Shown: in pieces, positions 19,549 through 28,654 of the stretch
Numbering within the stretch: the first letter of the stretch is position 1
Layout of the letters: the number at the start of each line of letters is the position of its first letter
Assembly: GCA_001664505.1 (NCBI GenBank)
Contig: CP011806.1
Span: forward strand, 1,496,109-1,541,400
Direction: 5' to 3'
Length of the DNA stretch: 45,292 nucleotides
From: Acidobacteria bacterium Mor1
Lineage (GTDB): Bacteria; Acidobacteriota; Polarisedimenticolia; Polarisedimenticolales; Polarisedimenticolaceae
Translations under genes and position numbers: made by a program
The notes under the pieces: generated by a model
Told to the model about the DNA's origin: nothing
The model's input: the letters and a program-made list of their open reading frames with translations, nothing else
The model's database searches: none

Positions 19549-20025
19549 TCAGGCCTCGGGCCCGGGCTCGAGAGGTTCGGCCGGTTGGATGAACCACTGC
19601 ACCCGCTCGACCGAGGGCCAGAGCGCGCCGACGATCAGGAGGTGCGCCGCGACCCCGAGCAGGGTCAGGGGCTGGCCGGTCAGAAAGTAGGCCACCGCCG
19701 CCAGCAGCGCCCCGCCCTCCGATACCGCCAGCGCGACGATGAAGGCCTGAATGAAACGCCGTATCCGGGTCTCGCCGTCAAGGGCCGAATCCGCATCGGC
19801 CCGCCCCTTGGCGGCGAGGAACAGGTGGTAGCCCGCCGCCGGAGCAACAAGGCCCAGCGCCCCGGCCACGATCTGGAGCGGCCGCATCGCCTGATCCATG
19901 CCGCCCATCCCGAACAGATAGGCGGGGATCAGGAACAGGACCGGGCCCGCGCCGAGGCCGAGGGCGATCAGGCGCGTGGTGCGGACCGCGCCTTCCACCG
20001 TCGCGCTGCCGGCCCCGACGCTCAC
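19549..20025 (-). CDS. Small four-helix membrane protein, function unknown
   Basis: 158 residues from a GTG that overlaps the upstream stop as GTGA, with AAGGA about 11 nt before it. Four hydrophobic helices are clear: about 15-40 (LGAGPVLFLIPAYLFG), 48-72, 92-120 and 122-145. The short loop between helices 2 and 3 is charged. I recognise no family. It is held between a DUF1684 lipoprotein gene and aroK with overlaps or a 1-nt gap, so it is certainly cotranscribed. The longer frame to 20133 runs deep into the DUF1684 gene and lacks a ribosome site. Confidence 0.7.
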   Translation of the reverse strand: MSVGAGSATVEGAVRTTRLIALGLGAGPVLFLIPAYLFGMGGMDQAMRPLQIVAGALGLVAPAAGYHLFLAAKGRADADSALDGETRIRRFIQAFIVALAVSEGGALLAAVAYFLTGQPLTLLGVAAHLLIVGALWPSVERVQWFIQPAEPLEPGPEA

Positions 20026-20669
20026 GCCGGATCTTCCTTGAACCCCTTCTCCCCCGCCTCGACGGGAACCACCATGCGGTTGGCCTGGGGAGTCACCGGA
20101 CAGGCGAAGCGCCCGGGATCGCCGTAGGCGCAACTGGGGTTGTAGGCCATGTTGAAGTCGAGAACGTAGCGCCCGTCCTCCAGCATCTCGATGTCGATGT
20201 AGCGGCCCGCCGGGTAGGTCTCGTTGCCCGATGTGCTGTCGGTGAACGGCAGGAAGGGAGTGCCCACGTCAAGCAGCTTGTAGACCTGCAGGATGTGGAC
20301 CTCCCCGTGCATGCGGAAGGTCAACCAGCCGACCTTCTCACAGGGGCGTTGCTGGCCCGACGTGGTGATGATCTGGAATCGTTCGGGTTGGGCGTAGAAC
20401 TGGATCGGCCCCTCGAACCGATAGTCCGCGTCGGCCTCGAAGTACTCGAGCCCCTGGAACGACGGCCGGTCCGCGGGCAGTAGCGGCGACTGCTCCGGGT
20501 CGCGCATCACGTCATCGCGGCTCTCACGCCACTCGGCAAGGGACGCCTCCCAACCCTCCGGCGCCTTGCCCGCGGCCATGCGACCGTCGCCGCCGGCATC
20601 GCAGCCGGCGCAGAGCAGCGCGAGCAGCAGTACCGCCCCCAAAGCGCGCACCACGGCCGCCCCGGTCAC
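20022..20669 (-). CDS. DUF1684 family lipoprotein
   Basis: 215 residues. The N-terminus is hydrophobic and ends LALLCAGC, a lipobox-like site with the lipid Cys at 23. The rest matches DUF1684 as I know it: a phenylalanine-rich segment (GPIQFYAQPERFQI), a YPAGRYIDIEML stretch, the conserved DFNMAYNPSCAYGDPGRFACPVTP with two Cys, and a closing PVEAGEKGF. The biochemical function of DUF1684 is not established. I placed the start at the GTG that overlaps the helicase stop as GTGA; an adjacent GTG at 20672 is equally possible. The longer frame to 20819 is a run-in from helicase DNA. Confidence 0.8.
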   Translation of the reverse strand: MTGAAVVRALGAVLLLALLCAGCDAGGDGRMAAGKAPEGWEASLAEWRESRDDVMRDPEQSPLLPADRPSFQGLEYFEADADYRFEGPIQFYAQPERFQIITTSGQQRPCEKVGWLTFRMHGEVHILQVYKLLDVGTPFLPFTDSTSGNETYPAGRYIDIEMLEDGRYVLDFNMAYNPSCAYGDPGRFACPVTPQANRMVVPVEAGEKGFKEDPA

Positions 20670-23600
20670 CACGAGACCGGCACCCGCAGGAGTCGTTCTT
20701 CCTTGTCCCGGTAAAGCAGGTAGCCCTGGTCGCGCCCCAGCTTGTAGAGCCGGGTCGTGATCTCCACGTCGCCGCGGCAGTAGCTCTCGATCAGGTCGAT
20801 GCGTCCCTGTTTCCACCATTGCAAACTCTGCAGGCCGTCGCCGGCCTTGCGAATACCGAAGTTCGCCTCGCCCAGGTGATTCAGCGAGAGACGGAACCCG
20901 GTTCGACGGTAGATCTCCTCGAGCATGTCGCAGGTGCGGATGCGCGACAGATCCTGGTCGGTGTAGCCCGAAAGGACCGGCAGATCGAAGCGGTCCAGGT
21001 TGAATCCGACGACGCGATCGGCCATCACCAGATCGAGCAGCAGCCGGTGCACGTCACTCTCATAGTAGGTCACGTAGCAGTCCGCGGCCGCATCGTAGAC
21101 GACCGCCAGCGCCAACCCCATGCGATCGACGTTGCCCCAACCGCCGACGTCGGCGGCGCTGTGCTGAGTCTCCACGTCGAGAACCAGCACCCGTTCGGCG
21201 GTAGTGACCGCCGGCGCCCCGCCCCTCGGAGGCGCGGCTCGGGGCTGCATCTCGGAACCGGCGGCGGGCAAGGCAGCGGCCGCATTCCCCCCATCGGGTC
21301 CCGGCTCGAGTGCGCCGGCCCGGGCAGGCGCGGCCGTTCCGGGCTCGACATTGCCGGCGCGGACGATGCCGTGTTTCCGCGGCGGCCGCGCCGCGGTCTG
21401 TTTTGCCAGGGCCTCCAGGTCCGCCGGCTCGATCGTCTCCAGTTCGGGGATCGCCTCCCGGCCCTCGAGGAATCCGAGCACCAGCAGCGAGGCTCGCTTG
21501 TCCAGCGGCTTGTTGCCGTTGCCGCAGCGGGGGGACTGAATGCAGCCGGGGCAGCCCTCCTCGCATTCACAGGACTCGATCATCGCCCGGGTGCGGGTGA
21601 TCAGATCGGGCAGGTCGCGGAAGCCGCGGGCGGCGAGCCCCGCCCCGCCGGCCATCCCGTCATAGAGGAAGATCGCCGGCCGGCCGAGCTGAGGATGGCC
21701 GGTGTAGGAGATGCCGCCGACGTCACCCCGATCGGCGATGGCCAGCAACGGAAACAGCGCGATCATCGCGTGCTCGGCAGCGTGGATCCCGCCCATGAAA
21801 TGCAGCCGGCGCTGCTTGAACGCCACCGGCATCTCGGGCGGCAGCTCGATCCAGAACCCGACGGTCTCGAAGATGAGCGGCGGCGCTTCCAGATCGTGGG
21901 CCGAGATCGGCTCGCCGCCGAAGAGCCGCTTCTTCTGGAACCCGCGAATACGCACCGTGACCTTGAGCCGGCCCAGGCCGACGCCGACCCGGTGAGGCGT
22001 ATCGCTCCCCGGCACCGGCAGTTCGAGTTCCCGCCGGTCGAGCCGCTCCAGAATCTCGGTCTCCTTCTCCCCCATCACCACGGTGTAGTAGTCGACCCGG
22101 GCCTGCTCGACGGTGGCCTTGCGTTTCTCGGTGTCCAGGTCGGTCACCAGGAAACTGCGTCCACCGTGCAGGTAGATCGCACCGGGATGACACTCGTGAT
22201 GGACCCGCATCCCGTCGATCTGTCCCAGCAGCCGTCCGCTGCGTTTTTCGACGATGGTGAAGGGCTGCGCCGCGGTGCGCAGATTGACTTCCCGGTGAGG
22301 CTTGCGCCGGAACGAGAAGTAGCGTTCCCCCGCGGCATCGAGACGCAGGTTGCCCTCGTCGAGCATCTTGTCGGCGAGAGCGGTCCGCGCTTCGCCGGCC
22401 CGCTCCAACTCTTCGCGGTCGATGGGCCGCTCACTGGCCGCGCAGATCAGGTGCCGCTCGGCGATGAACGGGTTGTTCGGATCCAGCACCACCCGCTCGA
22501 AGCCCTTGTTGAACAGAAGCTCGGGGTGTTGCGCCACGTACTGATCCAGGGCGTCGGGCATCGCGATCATGATCGCCAACGCCTCCCGATCCTTGCGGCC
22601 GACCCTGCCGATCCGCTGCCAAGTGGAGGTCAGCGATCCGGGATAGCCGACCAGGACGCAGACGTCGAGGGCGCCGACGTCGATGCCGAGCTCCAGAGCG
22701 CTGGTCGAGAGCACCGCGCTCAACTCTCCGCGAAACAATCTGTTCTCGAGATCACGCCGTTCCTCGGGCAGGTAGCCGGCGCGATAGGGCGCGACCTTCC
22801 CGCGCAACTGCGGTTCCTGCTGCACCAGCCACGTGTGCAGGAGTTCGGTAGTACGGCGGGCCTTGGTGAAGGCGATGGTCTTGAGCCCGGCGTCGGCGGC
22901 CCGGGCCACCGCCCGCACCGCGGTGGTGTAGGGGGACACGGCAACCGGGTTCAACACCCTTACGTGGAGCGGCGCCGACGGCGCGCCGCTCTCGTCGACC
23001 ATCTCGAACGGCTCGCCCACCAGGGTCTCGGCAAACTCCCCGGCGTTCCCCACCGTCGCCGACGCGCCGATGAACTGCGGGCGCCCCCCGGCGTCGGCGC
23101 ACAGGCGGCGTAACCGCTGCAGGATGTGGTGCACGTGGGCGCCGAACACCCCGCGGTAGACGTGCATCTCGTCGAGCACCACCCAGCGCAACTGCCGCAG
23201 GAAGTCGGCCCAATCCTGATGGTGGGACAGGATCCCCATGTGCAGCATGTCCGGATTGGTGACCAGCACCTCCGGCGGGTCGGCGCGGATCTTCTTGCGC
23301 CGATGCTGCGGCGTGTCGCCGTCGTAGATCTCGAAGCGGGGCGTGCGGAACGGTCCGAGCGCCGAGGACAACTCGCCGAGACTCCCGACCTGATCCTGGG
23401 CCAGGGCCTTGGTCGGATAGAGAAAGAGCGCTTTCGACCGAGGATCCTCGAGGGCGGACTCGAGCACCGGCAAGGCGAAGATCAGCGTCTTGCCCGAAGC
23501 GGTCGGGGTGACCGCCACCACGTTCTTGCCCGAGCGAGCCAGATCGGTCGCCCGGGCCTGGTGGGCGTAGAGCTGCTCGATCCCCCGGTAGCGCAGCGCC

Positions 23601-23773
23601 TCCTGGAGCTGTTGCGGAAACGGCCGCTGGGGATCGGCGAACTCGGGCCGGCGGCCTTCGACGGTGCGGCGATGCACGATCATCGGCCCGAGCCGGGAGT
23701 CGCTCTCCAGCCGCTCGACCAGGGATCGCACCACCGGATCGGCGGCGCCGGGGGTTTGGGGGGCTCCACTCAC
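20666..23773 (-). CDS. MrfA/YprA-like DEAH-box helicase fused to a DEDD-type exonuclease domain
   Basis: 1035 residues. The first 770 match the MrfA family of DNA-repair helicases: Walker A TPTASGKT (about residue 91), DEMH box in VVLDEMHVYRGVFG (about 198), motif VI QRIGRVGRKDR (about 388), and the C-terminal DUF1998-type zinc cluster CECEEGCPGC (about 734). An Ala/Pro/Gly linker of about 80 residues follows. Residues about 860-1030 form an RNase H-like 3'-5' exonuclease with D-x-E in VLDVETQ, GFNLDRFDLPVL, and YCRGDVEI, so all four acidic positions and a Tyr seem present. In Bacillus the helicase MrfA and nuclease MrfB are separate. The GTG start is preceded by a -10 element only. Confidence 0.92.
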   Translation of the reverse strand: MSGAPQTPGAADPVVRSLVERLESDSRLGPMIVHRRTVEGRRPEFADPQRPFPQQLQEALRYRGIEQLYAHQARATDLARSGKNVVAVTPTASGKTLIFALPVLESALEDPRSKALFLYPTKALAQDQVGSLGELSSALGPFRTPRFEIYDGDTPQHRRKKIRADPPEVLVTNPDMLHMGILSHHQDWADFLRQLRWVVLDEMHVYRGVFGAHVHHILQRLRRLCADAGGRPQFIGASATVGNAGEFAETLVGEPFEMVDESGAPSAPLHVRVLNPVAVSPYTTAVRAVARAADAGLKTIAFTKARRTTELLHTWLVQQEPQLRGKVAPYRAGYLPEERRDLENRLFRGELSAVLSTSALELGIDVGALDVCVLVGYPGSLTSTWQRIGRVGRKDREALAIMIAMPDALDQYVAQHPELLFNKGFERVVLDPNNPFIAERHLICAASERPIDREELERAGEARTALADKMLDEGNLRLDAAGERYFSFRRKPHREVNLRTAAQPFTIVEKRSGRLLGQIDGMRVHHECHPGAIYLHGGRSFLVTDLDTEKRKATVEQARVDYYTVVMGEKETEILERLDRRELELPVPGSDTPHRVGVGLGRLKVTVRIRGFQKKRLFGGEPISAHDLEAPPLIFETVGFWIELPPEMPVAFKQRRLHFMGGIHAAEHAMIALFPLLAIADRGDVGGISYTGHPQLGRPAIFLYDGMAGGAGLAARGFRDLPDLITRTRAMIESCECEEGCPGCIQSPRCGNGNKPLDKRASLLVLGFLEGREAIPELETIEPADLEALAKQTAARPPRKHGIVRAGNVEPGTAAPARAGALEPGPDGGNAAAALPAAGSEMQPRAAPPRGGAPAVTTAERVLVLDVETQHSAADVGGWGNVDRMGLALAVVYDAAADCYVTYYESDVHRLLLDLVMADRVVGFNLDRFDLPVLSGYTDQDLSRIRTCDMLEEIYRRTGFRLSLNHLGEANFGIRKAGDGLQSLQWWKQGRIDLIESYCRGDVEITTRLYKLGRDQGYLLYRDKEERLLRVPVSW

Positions 23774-24621: not shown

Positions 24622-25152
24622 TTGACCGCTGATTCGAATCAGTCCTGGGATCTGGAGGAGGTCCGCCGCGTCCTGGTGGCGGCTGTGGCCAAGGCCTGCC
24701 CGGCGTGGCTGGCCGGCGACCGGGAGGACATCGTCCAGGGGGCGATGATCCGGGTCGTGCGAATCCTTGAGCAACAAGGTGAGGAGAATCGGATCCGCAG
24801 CACGTCTTACCTGTGGCGGGTCGGATATACGGCCACGATCAGCGAGATCCGGCGCCGGCGCCGCCAGCAGGAGGAACCCGTGGACCTCGACGCTGCGCCC
24901 GAGCCGGTCGACCCCGGCACCCCCGATCCGGAGCGCGTCTCGGCATCCCGCGAAATCGGCCGTGGGATCGAGGACTGCCTCCTGGCGATGATCGAGCCGA
25001 GACGCCTGGCGGTGACCCTGCACCTCCACGGCTACGGGTTGAAGGAATCCGCCGCGATGCTCGGCTGGGACGTCAAGCGGGTGGACAACCTGCTCTATCG
25101 CGGCCTGGGCGACCTGAGGAAGTGCCTGAGCGGAAAGGGGCTGGAACCATGA
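24622..25152 (+). CDS. Sigma-70 family (ECF-like) RNA polymerase sigma factor
   Basis: 176 residues. Region 2 is recognisable in DREDIVQGAMIRVVRILEQQ and in YLWRVGYTATISEIRRRRR, the -10-binding helix. Region 4 carries the helix-turn-helix YGLKESAAMLGWDVKRVDNLLYRG. It is divergent from typical ECF proteins, and a negatively charged linker joins the regions. The start is TTG at 24622 with GGGGGTGG just before it. The stop overlaps the next ATG (ATGA). It is the first gene of a three-gene module with a membrane anti-sigma-like protein and a TPR-CHAT protein. Confidence 0.85.
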   Translation: MTADSNQSWDLEEVRRVLVAAVAKACPAWLAGDREDIVQGAMIRVVRILEQQGEENRIRSTSYLWRVGYTATISEIRRRRRQQEEPVDLDAAPEPVDPGTPDPERVSASREIGRGIEDCLLAMIEPRRLAVTLHLHGYGLKESAAMLGWDVKRVDNLLYRGLGDLRKCLSGKGLEP

Positions 25153-25826
25153 GCGAAACGGCCCGCAGCGAAGACCTGCGCCGCGGTCTGGAGGAACTTG
25201 CGCGGGGACACCGTCCGAGCGCCCCGGACTCGGTCGTCGAGGAGGTCTGGAAAGCGACCCGGGGGGAACTCCCGTCGGACCAGACCCGGGAGCTGATCAA
25301 CCGCTCGATCACCGAACCGGAGCTCGCTGAGGCGTTTCGCCTCGCCGCCGAGATCCAGAAGGAGATGCCCGCAGAGCCCGCCGCGGCCGGCGGCGCCCGC
25401 TCCGGGTTCGGCTCACGCCTCGCCGCGTTGGGCGCCGTGGCGGCTGCGGTGATCGCCGTGGTGTTGCTCTTGCCGGTGTTGCGCGGACCGGACTCCCCCG
25501 CTTCAGGCGCCGGCGAGGTTCAGTTCCGCAACGACGCCGAACTCGTGCTCGCTTCCCCCCAGGATGGCGGCATCGAGCTCCGGCGGGACGCTCTGGAGCT
25601 GACCTGGACCGCCGGTCCCGAGGGCACCCGCTACGACCTCGAGATCGCCGGAGTCGATCTCGCCGTGCTGCACCGTGCCGAGGGTCTGACCGAGACCCGC
25701 TACACCGTCCCCGCCGACGCGGTAGCCGGCGTCGAGCCGGGCGACCGCTTGCTGTGGGGCATCGAGGCAACCGAGCCCGACGGCAGCAGGACCACCTCCC
25801 GCACCTTCGTCGTCGTCCTGCAATGA
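25149..25826 (+). CDS. Membrane anti-sigma-like protein lacking zinc ligands
   Basis: 225 residues. The N-terminus (1-75) has the shape of a cytoplasmic anti-sigma domain: GELPSDQTRELINRS, then EPELAEAFRLAAEIQKE, which resembles the helix after the CxxC of zinc-finger anti-sigma factors but without His or Cys. One membrane helix lies at about 91-111. The outer part (112-225) is a probable beta-sandwich, similar to fibronectin III or carbohydrate-binding folds (YDLEIAGVDLAVL, YTVPADAV). Coupled by ATGA on both sides, to the sigma gene before and the CHAT gene after. Its role as the sigma inhibitor is inferred from position and topology. Confidence 0.75.
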   Translation: MSETARSEDLRRGLEELARGHRPSAPDSVVEEVWKATRGELPSDQTRELINRSITEPELAEAFRLAAEIQKEMPAEPAAAGGARSGFGSRLAALGAVAAAVIAVVLLLPVLRGPDSPASGAGEVQFRNDAELVLASPQDGGIELRRDALELTWTAGPEGTRYDLEIAGVDLAVLHRAEGLTETRYTVPADAVAGVEPGDRLLWGIEATEPDGSRTTSRTFVVVLQ

Positions 25827-28654
25827 GCCGGAAGGCGGTGGCGGCGGGCCTCCTGCTGACCGCGCTCTGCTTGCTACCCGCCGCGGCCGAGGAGGTGGAC
25901 CTCTCGGCGGTGCGGAGCTTCGACGACTGCGACCGGATCGTCGACCTCCACCCGGACTCCTTCCGCGCCCACCGCTGCTATCGCCTGCTCTCCCGCAAGA
26001 CCGGGCAGCACGCCGAGGCCATCCGCAGACTCGAAGCCCGCCGGTCGGTGCGGCCCGGCAACGGACTGATCCCGCTGATGCTCGCCTCGATTCGCTACGA
26101 CTCCGGCGATCCGGACCGGGCGCTCGTAGAGATGGGAGACGGGATTCGGCTGCTGGAATCCGCGGGGCGAACCCGAGACGAGATCGAGGCGCGGCTGCGC
26201 ATGCGCTTCATGCTTGCCACCCGTGGCGATTTGGCCGCGGCCGACGCCGAACTGGAACGGGCCGCGGCGGTCGCCGAGACCCTCGACGACGAGCGGATAC
26301 GGGTCGCGATCCTGATCATCCAGGCCGAGAGGGCGCGAGAGCGAGGAGACGACGGGCTCGCGCTCTCGCTGTTTCTCCAGGTCGAGCAGCGGTTGGGGCC
26401 CGACGGTTCACCCAACCAACGAGCGATCACCTATTCCCGCATCGGCGGAGTCTACCTGACGCTCAACCGCTACGAACCCGCCATGCGCTACTTCGAACGG
26501 GAGATTGCCCTGCGGCGGGAGCTGGGAGATCGCTACGCCGAGGCGATTTCGATGGACAACTACCTGCGCTGCCTGTTCTACACCGGCCGCACCCCCGCCG
26601 CCGAACTTCGCCCGATGATTGAACGTTCCGTAGAGACCGCGAGAGAGCTGGGGAACGGCCCCATCGAAGCGGCGATGCTGCGGATGCTCTCGGAGATCGA
26701 GAGCGACCAGGCAGCCCGCATCGATCTCCTGACCCGCTCGGCGGAGCTCGCTCGCCGGTTGCGCTTGAACGGCGAACTGTCCCTCTCGCTGACCCTGCTG
26801 GCCGAAGCCACCCTCTCGACCGATACCGAGACCGCCTTCGAGCACATCGAGAACGCGACCCGGCTGGCCAAGACCCGGGGCTACTCGCCCCGCTGGGCTC
26901 ATGCGCTGGCGATCAAGGCGCACATGCGCCGGCAGATCGGCCCGCGGGAAGACGCCCTTGCCGACTCCCTCGCCGCCCTCGATGCCGTCGAGATGCTGCG
27001 CACGCTGCACTCCGACGACGAGGTGCGCACGACCCACTTCGAACGCTGGTCCGGGGTCTACTACTCGGCGGCCGCCTACATCCTCGGAGACCCCCGGGGC
27101 CTGCCCGATGACGAAGCCATGGAGGCGGCCCACCGGGTGATCGAACGGATGCGCTCACGCCGTCTGCTCGATCACCTGGACCGCACCCGCAGCGCGACGG
27201 TTTCGGGCGCGGCTCCGGAACTGGAGGCCCGCCGCAGGGCCGCACTCAACCAGATCGCCTTGATCCAGCGAGACCTGCTGGATCCGGAACTCGAGAACGA
27301 CGCCCGGGAACGCTTGCTCGCCGACCTGACCCAGCGGGAGCTCGACGAACGGGAAGCCCGGGCGCTGCTGGTCCGGGAGGATCCGCGCTTCGCCAGGCTG
27401 GAGCAGCCCGAGATCCCCGAGCTGAAGCAGCTACGGCAGAGCCTCTCTCCCGGCCAGGCGGTGCTCTCCTACCAGCTGTTCCGGGCGGACACCTCGGCCC
27501 TCCTGGTGCACACCGCCGGCGAGAGCCGCGTGTATCCGATGCCGACCCGGGACGAAGCGGAGGCCGCGGTGCGGCTCTACATCGGATCTCTCGAACGGCG
27601 GGACGAACTCGAGGGGGAGCTTGCCGCCCGACTGCACGGGATGCTGCTTGCCGATGCACTGGACGACCTGCCCGGCGAGGTCACGCGGCTTCTGATCGTT
27701 CCCGACGGGCCGCTCCAGCGACTGCCGTTCCATGCGCTGCGCGAAGGGCCGGAGAGTGCGCCCCTTGCCCGCCGCTACGCCATCGGCGTCGCGCCCTCGA
27801 TCTCGACCTGGATGCGCCTGCGCAACACCCCTTCCGAGGCGGGCAACGCCGTGCTCGCCCTGGCCGACCCGGAACTGCGCGCCGAACAGAGCGAAACCTC
27901 GTCGCTTCGCGCCTGGAGCCTCGATCGAGTCGGAGGACTCGGCTCCCTACCCCACGCCCGCCGCGAAGCCGCCGCCGCGGTGCGCCGGCTCGGATCGGGA
28001 TCCGAACTGCACACCGGCGCGTCGGCCAGCGAACACCTGATCAAGACCGAGGACCTCACCGGCTTCCGCATGATCCACTTCGCCGCCCACGCGCTGCTGG
28101 ACGATTCGCACCCCGAGCGAGCGTCCCTGCTGCTGACCCCCGGCGATCCCGGCGAGGACGGACTGCTCCAGGTGCGGGAAATCGTCGAGCTCGGCCTCGA
28201 CGGCCAGGTGGTGGTGCTCGCGGCCTGCAAGAGCGCCGCTGGCCGGGAGGTCATGGGCGAAGGGGTCGTCGGGCTGTCTCACGCCTTTTTCCAGGCGGGT
28301 GCCCGGGCGGTGATCGGCGGGCTGTGGCCGCTGCGCGACGACGAGACGGAACGATTGATCGACGGGATGTATGCCGAACTCGCCCGGGGCGCGTCGGTCG
28401 TCGACGCCCTGGGCGCCGCCCGGCGGCGAGCGCTGGATGCCGGCGAACCGGCGGCCGCCTGGTCCGGCGTGGTGGTGATCGGCGACGGGGACTACGTGCC
28501 GCTACCCGGTGGTTCTGCCGCGGGCAAGGCCCGGCGCATCATCGGCGCTGGACTGTTGCTGGTGGTCGCGCTGGGGTTGTTCCTGCTGTCCCGGCGACGG
28601 GGAACTCAGCGGTTCTCGGCGGTCGCGTCGAACAACCCGCTGAACTCGCCGTAG
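25823..28654 (+). CDS. Exported TPR-CHAT (caspase-like) protein with C-terminal membrane anchor
   Basis: 943 residues. A signal peptide (about 1-22, ending LLPAAA) is followed by tetratricopeptide-like helical repeats to about 450, a charged helical stretch, and the CHAT domain at about 620-895. The caspase-type dyad is intact: the second His of IHFAAHA (H756) and C802 in VVLAACKSA, followed by [23 protein letters not shown], typical of CHAT. One membrane helix lies at about 906-923, then a short basic tail. Signal peptide plus anchor put the protease-like domain outside the cytoplasm. ATGA overlap with the anti-sigma-like gene. The 3' end overlaps the convergent msrAB gene by 49 nt. Confidence 0.9.

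Follow-up and report, generated by a model that had tools for sequence, protein, structure and literature searches.

We analysed a stretch of 45,292 nucleotides (the window) inside the 5.985 Mb single-contig genome of Acidobacteria bacterium Mor1. A gene on its minus strand was found to encode a protein of 1035 residues, in which a helicase of the YprA/MrfA family is followed in the same open frame by a predicted DEDDy 3'-5' exonuclease. We consider it about 70% probable that this protein is a single-chain DNA-processing machine, an in-cis counterpart of MrfA and MrfB of Bacillus subtilis, with one fusion origin and a nuclease part that probably differs from MrfB. An earlier sequence-only reading had described the gene as an MrfA-like helicase with a built-in MrfB-like exonuclease.

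A helicase and a predicted nuclease share one reading frame

In the helicase part PTASGKT lies at residue 90, DEMH at residue 201 and QRIGRVGR at residue 386, and the SAT motif is also present; the zinc cluster sequence CECEEGCPGC at residues 735-744 is followed by a further cysteine, C750. The layout of the YprA/MrfA family (DEAD/DEAH, Helicase_C, winged helix and four-Cys MZB) was found in full, with the four Pfam domains DEAD, Helicase_C, WHD_HRQ1 and MZB all above cut-off. The best PDB sequence match of the helicase was B. subtilis YprA/MrfA (6znp, E=2.8e-136), in agreement with the helicase motifs and zinc cluster of the MrfA family that had been noted from the sequence alone. The nearest NCBIfam model was TIGR03817 (DECH_helic, with SftH and the actinobacterial 'YprA only' helicases), which shares the helicase layout and scored 724 bits. 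However, the window protein lies under the curated cut-off of that model (874 bits), SftH-type helicases end without a nuclease domain, and the actinobacterial YprA-only helicases formed a clade of their own in the helicase tree.

In the full-length AlphaFold2 model (mean predicted local distance difference test score, pLDDT, 83.7) all of residues 779-858 had a pLDDT under 50. These are exactly 80 residues, the length that the sequence-only reading had given for a disordered linker. Among 92 fused proteins the spacer between the zinc cluster and the nuclease has a median length of 62 residues (range 46-168), and this variable length argues for a flexible tether and not for rigid docking.

The C-terminal domain of 177 residues was modelled with a mean pLDDT of 95.5 (AlphaFold2, 13-sequence alignment). 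Based on Foldseek and VIA-align comparisons it was superposed on the proofreading exonucleases of B-family and T7 DNA polymerases; the best structural matches were those of B-family polymerases, with 144-163 residues aligned and Z of about 14-15 in the best rows. Its catalytic set consists of D866, E868, D930, Y998 and D1002. D866, E868, Y998 and D1002 were present in 91/91 fused relatives from several phyla and D930 in 89/91, so the nuclease motifs are not there by chance. The D-x-E, GFNLDRFD and YCRGDVE motifs had been recognised earlier as holding all DEDDy residues, and the same reading had named a missing exonuclease fold or unconserved catalytic acids as what would overturn it; both the fold and the conserved acids were found. 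Other invariant residues (GGW 877-879, D949, K976, W986 and C999) mark the fused nuclease domains as a coherent family. The Pfam RNase_H_2 score of the window protein was marginal (22.4-22.6 bits against a cut-off of 22), and RNase_H_2 was matched by 13/13 members of the domain alignment A1, the best at 1.8e-8. A match to DNA_pol_B_exo2 was near threshold. With an RNase H-like fold and D-x-E, D and Y-x3-D all present, the domain is predicted to be a DEDDy 3'-5' exonuclease of DnaQ/PolB-exo fold (RNase_H_2 / DNA_pol_B_exo2 group). The structural part of the sequence-only description proved accurate throughout.

The domain alignment was also used to scan one genome per species, which gave at least 529 confirmed relatives, and the best 80 of these were inspected for fusion. 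Helicase and nuclease shared one open frame in 77 of the 80; the other three comprised two nucleases that stand alone and a fragment lying where its contig ends. A sequencing or frame artefact is ruled out by these counts, and the built-in helicase-nuclease proposed for the window is upheld by them. Fused forms were found in at least six bacterial lineages (Acidobacteriota, Desulfobacterales and relatives in the Thermodesulfobacteriota, Myxococcales in the Myxococcota, Methylomirabilota, Firestonebacteria, KSB1 and others). How common the fusion is had been left as a question by the sequence-only reading, and phylum surveys on evenly drawn genomes gave the nuclease domain in a frame of more than 900 residues in 33 of 197 Acidobacteriota genomes. 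For the phylum to which Desulforhopalus belongs, where frame length was the sole criterion, about 47 genomes out of 148 had a match in a frame of 940 residues or more. Desulforhopalus and Desulfoluna are examples of culturable groups with the fusion. All 24 near relatives that were searched and are 90% or more complete gave a helicase match, most of them visibly fused, and the nearest named relatives among the matches listed include Candidatus Polarisedimenticola and gp22 Acidobacteria. A plasmid search gave no fused copy and no match spanning 80% of the protein. The fusion is common and is not peculiar to the genome of Acidobacteria bacterium Mor1.

A helicase tree was built from 54 rows, 30 of them fused helicases, and its root was not fixed. 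All 30 fused helicases formed one clade (support 99/99). Because of this, the simplest account of the tree is that the fusion arose once and was then inherited, with some transfer.

Table 1. Window positions of the helicase-nuclease gene and of its domains and motifs
Feature	Position	Strand	Basis
Whole gene: YprA-family helicase fused to predicted DEDDy exonuclease, 1035 aa	20666..23773	minus	GTG start at 23773, stop 20668-20666; Pfam, NCBIfam, full-length model
RecA1 (DEAD) domain, residues 70-242, with PTASGKT and DEMH	23048..23566	minus	Pfam PF00270 E=2.7e-31
RecA2 (Helicase_C) domain, residues 295-394, with QRIGRVGR	22592..22891	minus	Pfam PF00271 E=2.4e-13
Winged-helix domain of HRQ1/YprA kind, residues 430-500	22274..22486	minus	Pfam PF22982 E=1.6e-8
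MZB (MrfA Zn-binding/DUF1998) domain, residues 666-745	21539..21778	minus	Pfam PF09369 E=2.1e-20
Zinc cluster C735, C737, C741, C744 and further invariant C750	21524..21571	minus	Motif position 735-750; Cys invariant in 19 fused proteins
Low-confidence (disordered) linker, 80 residues 779-858, Ala/Pro/Gly-rich	21200..21439	minus	pLDDT <50
Predicted DEDDy 3'-5' exonuclease domain, residues 859-1035	20669..21199	minus	AlphaFold2 pLDDT 95.5; PolB proofreading exonuclease fold; RNase_H_2
Motif I D866-V-E868	21170..21178	minus	91/91 D, 91/91 E
Motif II GFNLDRFD, residues 923-930, catalytic D930	20984..21007	minus	N925 91/91, F929 91/91, D930 89/91
Motif III Y998-C-R-G-D1002	20768..20782	minus	Y 91/91, C999 91/91, D1002 91/91

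Relation to MrfA and MrfB

MrfA and MrfB (YprA and YprB) of B. subtilis resemble the two parts of the fused protein. In both, a YprA-family superfamily 2 (SF2) helicase with an MZB zinc cluster and a winged helix is accompanied by a DEDD exonuclease of RNase H fold, and joint action is presumed. MrfA and MrfB are epistatic, act on mitomycin damage and are encoded by two genes, whereas here both parts are in one chain; MrfB is a DEDDh enzyme (His258) with a tetratricopeptide repeat (TPR) tail (PMC11194089). Complementation by mrfAB is reported to work only with closely related alleles (PMC12458937). As a reference for the true two-gene arrangement we used Acidobacteriota neighbours, in which a YprA helicase of about 800 residues is followed by a nuclease of about 450 residues. 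That nuclease is true MrfB, as one member matched the MrfB structure 8un9 at E=2.1e-33, and the DEDDh motif H-N-x-x-D was found in 15/15 of these proteins. In the fused domain the position of the MrfB histidine was occupied by tyrosine in 91/91 relatives, and the chain stops at the exonuclease fold, at residue 1035, with no TPR tail.

The strongest competing explanation is a plain head-to-tail fusion of MrfA and MrfB, in which the histidine became tyrosine and the TPR tail was lost. The order helicase then nuclease is the same, the marginal RNase_H_2 score places both nucleases in one Pfam superfamily, and the spacing Y998-x3-D equals that of His258-x3-Asp262 in MrfB (PMC11194089). A 2025 preprint also names the fused partners MrfB/YprB homologues (PMC12458937). 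The profile comparisons point the other way. The fused-domain profile gave mean scores of 8.3 bits against MrfB, 31.7 bits against PF10108-type exonucleases and 21.9 bits against another RNase_H_2 DEDDy family, so that MrfB scored lower than two other DEDD families, and the reverse search with the MrfB profile gave a mean of 3.8 bits on the fused domains. With hhalign the match to MrfB was partial and reached 1.3e-5, as compared to 1.4e-10 and 1.2e-9 for the two other families. MrfB 8un9 was absent at E<=1 from the PDB search with the fused-domain profile, in contrast to the match obtained from true Acidobacteriota MrfB; its absence from the best 50 structural matches listed proves nothing either way. 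The helicases also fall in different clades: B. subtilis MrfA grouped with the two-gene Acidobacteriota MrfA (100/99) and not with the fused helicases, and actinobacterial and haloarchaeal helicases were on other branches. In the best nuclease tree a branch with support 99/98 separated the fused and PF10108-type domains from MrfB and the other RNase_H_2 family. On this evidence we regard the head-to-tail fusion as unlikely.

Three observations weigh against our explanation. A tree with the fused domains and MrfB in one clade was only 12 log units worse and was not rejected by the approximately unbiased (AU) test (p=0.109), a result compatible with the head-to-tail fusion. The aspartate of motif II is missing in two fused relatives (L020 and L084, RFA for RFD). 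The same nuclease domain also occurs by itself, in stand-alone copies with no helicase beside them, so the domain also works apart from the helicase. Taken together with the profile scores, the fused nuclease is likely not MrfB, and the fusion is likely a parallel one-chain analogue of MrfAB and not the same pair joined. From the sequence-only description the MrfA family of the helicase was retained, with the helicase placed outside the B. subtilis MrfA clade, and the likeness of the nuclease to MrfB was not; a search of the C-terminal domain, which that reading had proposed, returned RNase_H_2 marginally and MrfB not at all at E<=1.

At least 35 of the 197 Acidobacteriota genomes have adjacent mrfA and mrfB. 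None of the 197 carried both the fusion and an adjacent mrfA-mrfB, and an RNase_H_2 search detected an MrfB-type protein in none of the 33 fused Acidobacteriota genomes. One doubtful case among the fused genomes (G078) scored 16 bits against the MrfB profile and belongs to another family. A separate MrfB was also sought in the genome of the window, where the sole RNase_H_2 match was DnaQ-like with 17.7 bits to the MrfB profile (L001), and was rejected. As none had both, the fusion and mrfAB are mutually exclusive in this sample. In our explanation the fused gene takes the place of mrfAB wherever it occurs. If so, the Acidobacteriota and Desulfobacterota with the fusion and without mrfAB would have a candidate replacement pathway.

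As the preprint mentions YprA helicases fused to MrfB/YprB homologues, the existence of the fusion is not new, and the window protein agrees with the fused forms of the repair branch described there (PMC12458937). That the nuclease is DEDDy and that the helicases form a separate clade were not found reported in the literature, a comparison that the supplementary tables of PMC12458937 lie outside, and a literature search for COG1205 together with COG3359 found no paper. A likely annotation error would be corrected by these results, since the fused nuclease would be read as an MrfB/YprB homologue and looks like a different DEDDy family.

Proposed function

We propose that the protein combines a YprA/MrfA/SftH-family SF2 helicase, which belongs to the housekeeping (repair) branch and would translocate 3'-to-5' on single-stranded DNA, with a DEDDy 3'-to-5' exonuclease of PolB-proofreading fold, tethered at the helicase C-terminus by a long flexible linker. 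MrfA and SftH are 3'-5' helicases (PMC12458937), and by analogy the same polarity is assumed for the fused helicase; the polarity of the nuclease is taken from DEDD chemistry. The helicase would most likely load at a 3' single-stranded stretch of a damaged or stalled site and unwind it, while the tethered nuclease would trim the 3' end emerging from or adjoining the helicase. With a 3'-5' helicase and a nuclease acting on 3' ends, both activities would share one strand and one direction of travel. Trimming would remove the damaged segment and block reannealing, so that the fused protein would do in cis the job of MrfA and MrfB in the repair of mitomycin-type lesions. DNA is the presumed substrate and repair the presumed role. 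One polypeptide with both activities would allow helicase-exonuclease coupling in MrfAB-type repair to be tested in one protein with single-site controls.

The nuclease might instead act on RNA or RNA-DNA hybrids and clear R-loops or transcripts, not lesions. DEDDy enzymes include RNase D and NrnC, and the top PDB sequence-profile match of the domain was an NrnC, at E=0.13, which is below significance. However, the best structural matches were DNA-polymerase proofreading domains and the YprA-family members in the cited papers are DNA helicases, which makes a role on RNA quite improbable.

YprA helicases may have gained DEDD exonuclease partners independently on several occasions, with non-orthologous nucleases; the fused clade would then be an uncharacterised but widespread repair enzyme in place of MrfAB. 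We give this reading an even chance. The pairings would be the DEDDh MrfB with TPR in two genes, the PolB-exo-like DEDDy domain in cis in several phyla, and an upstream HhH-RNase_H_2 DEDDy nuclease in haloarchaea. If true, the partnership of helicase and 3'-exonuclease would be the selected unit. Staphylococcus aureus DinG likewise unites a 3'-5' DEDD exonuclease and an SF2 helicase in one chain, and its authors liken this natural fusion to MrfA and MrfB; it differs in that the exonuclease is N-terminal and DEDDh and the helicase is 5'-3' and of the DinG group (PMC12345164).

Genomic surroundings and side families

The gene lies between rpiA (upstream) and a gene for a DUF1684 lipoprotein (downstream), all on the minus strand. 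No neighbours were conserved over 77 loci, where the commonest neighbour family occurred in 11, as for a housekeeping repair gene. Alternatively, the protein could serve against phages, as an effector from the defence branch of YprA helicases (TALON, ARMADA, Druantia or DISARM type), which shares the helicase superfamily and in which C-terminal nuclease fusions are typical (PMC12458937). PADLOC models matched the helicase part (best BrxHI/HII, 179 bits), but these matches were partial and far under that of TIGR03817. The helicases of TALON, ARMADA and Druantia differ by their defence operons, by insertions and by different or inactivated nuclease domains, the fused RNase H domains of TALON being described as inactivated (PMC12458937), whereas the active site is intact here. 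No defence operon was found around the gene in the window and there were no TOTE-type neighbours; rpiA and DUF1684 adjoin it, and genes for a sigma factor and a CHAT-TPR protein lie at a greater distance. The helicase match in all searched near relatives is also unlike a patchy, mobile defence gene. A defence system was rejected on context and profile scores and is very improbable.

The longest frame of the DUF1684 lipoprotein gene (window 20022-20819, minus strand) runs into the end of the helicase-nuclease gene, and its true start is therefore probably further in. Close to this locus, on the plus strand (window 24622-28654), a gene for a 966-residue TPR-CHAT protein (PF12770, 1.7e-58) comes after a weak sigma-70-like gene, possibly a CHAT-type protease module.

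Among the fused relatives, the L020 match also crosses an in-frame TAG. The stand-alone DEDDy copies (L132-L140, L034 and L098) have frames of 172-280 residues with no adjoining YprA helicase and come from Acidobacteriota, a Desulfobacterales and a Nitrospirota; at least one genome with a stand-alone domain, G049, lacks any MZB match.

On haloarchaeal plasmids a YprA-family helicase begins 2-7 bases after a gene for a helix-hairpin-helix (HhH) and RNase_H_2 nuclease (L173:783-4810, L174:917-4792, L179:964-4843). The two of these nucleases that were inspected (L173 and L179) carry a YCE-x-D motif and are DEDDy. They represent a further helicase-DEDD pairing and resemble both MrfB and the fused domain poorly. 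The members of the other RNase_H_2 family (L166-L170 and L182) are of about 280 residues and DEDDy, with YNxQDV or YCLEDV; they occur in several Acidobacteriota, some of which also carry the helicase-nuclease fusion. In L182 the domain is joined to a C-terminal region that by eye resembles DUF429.

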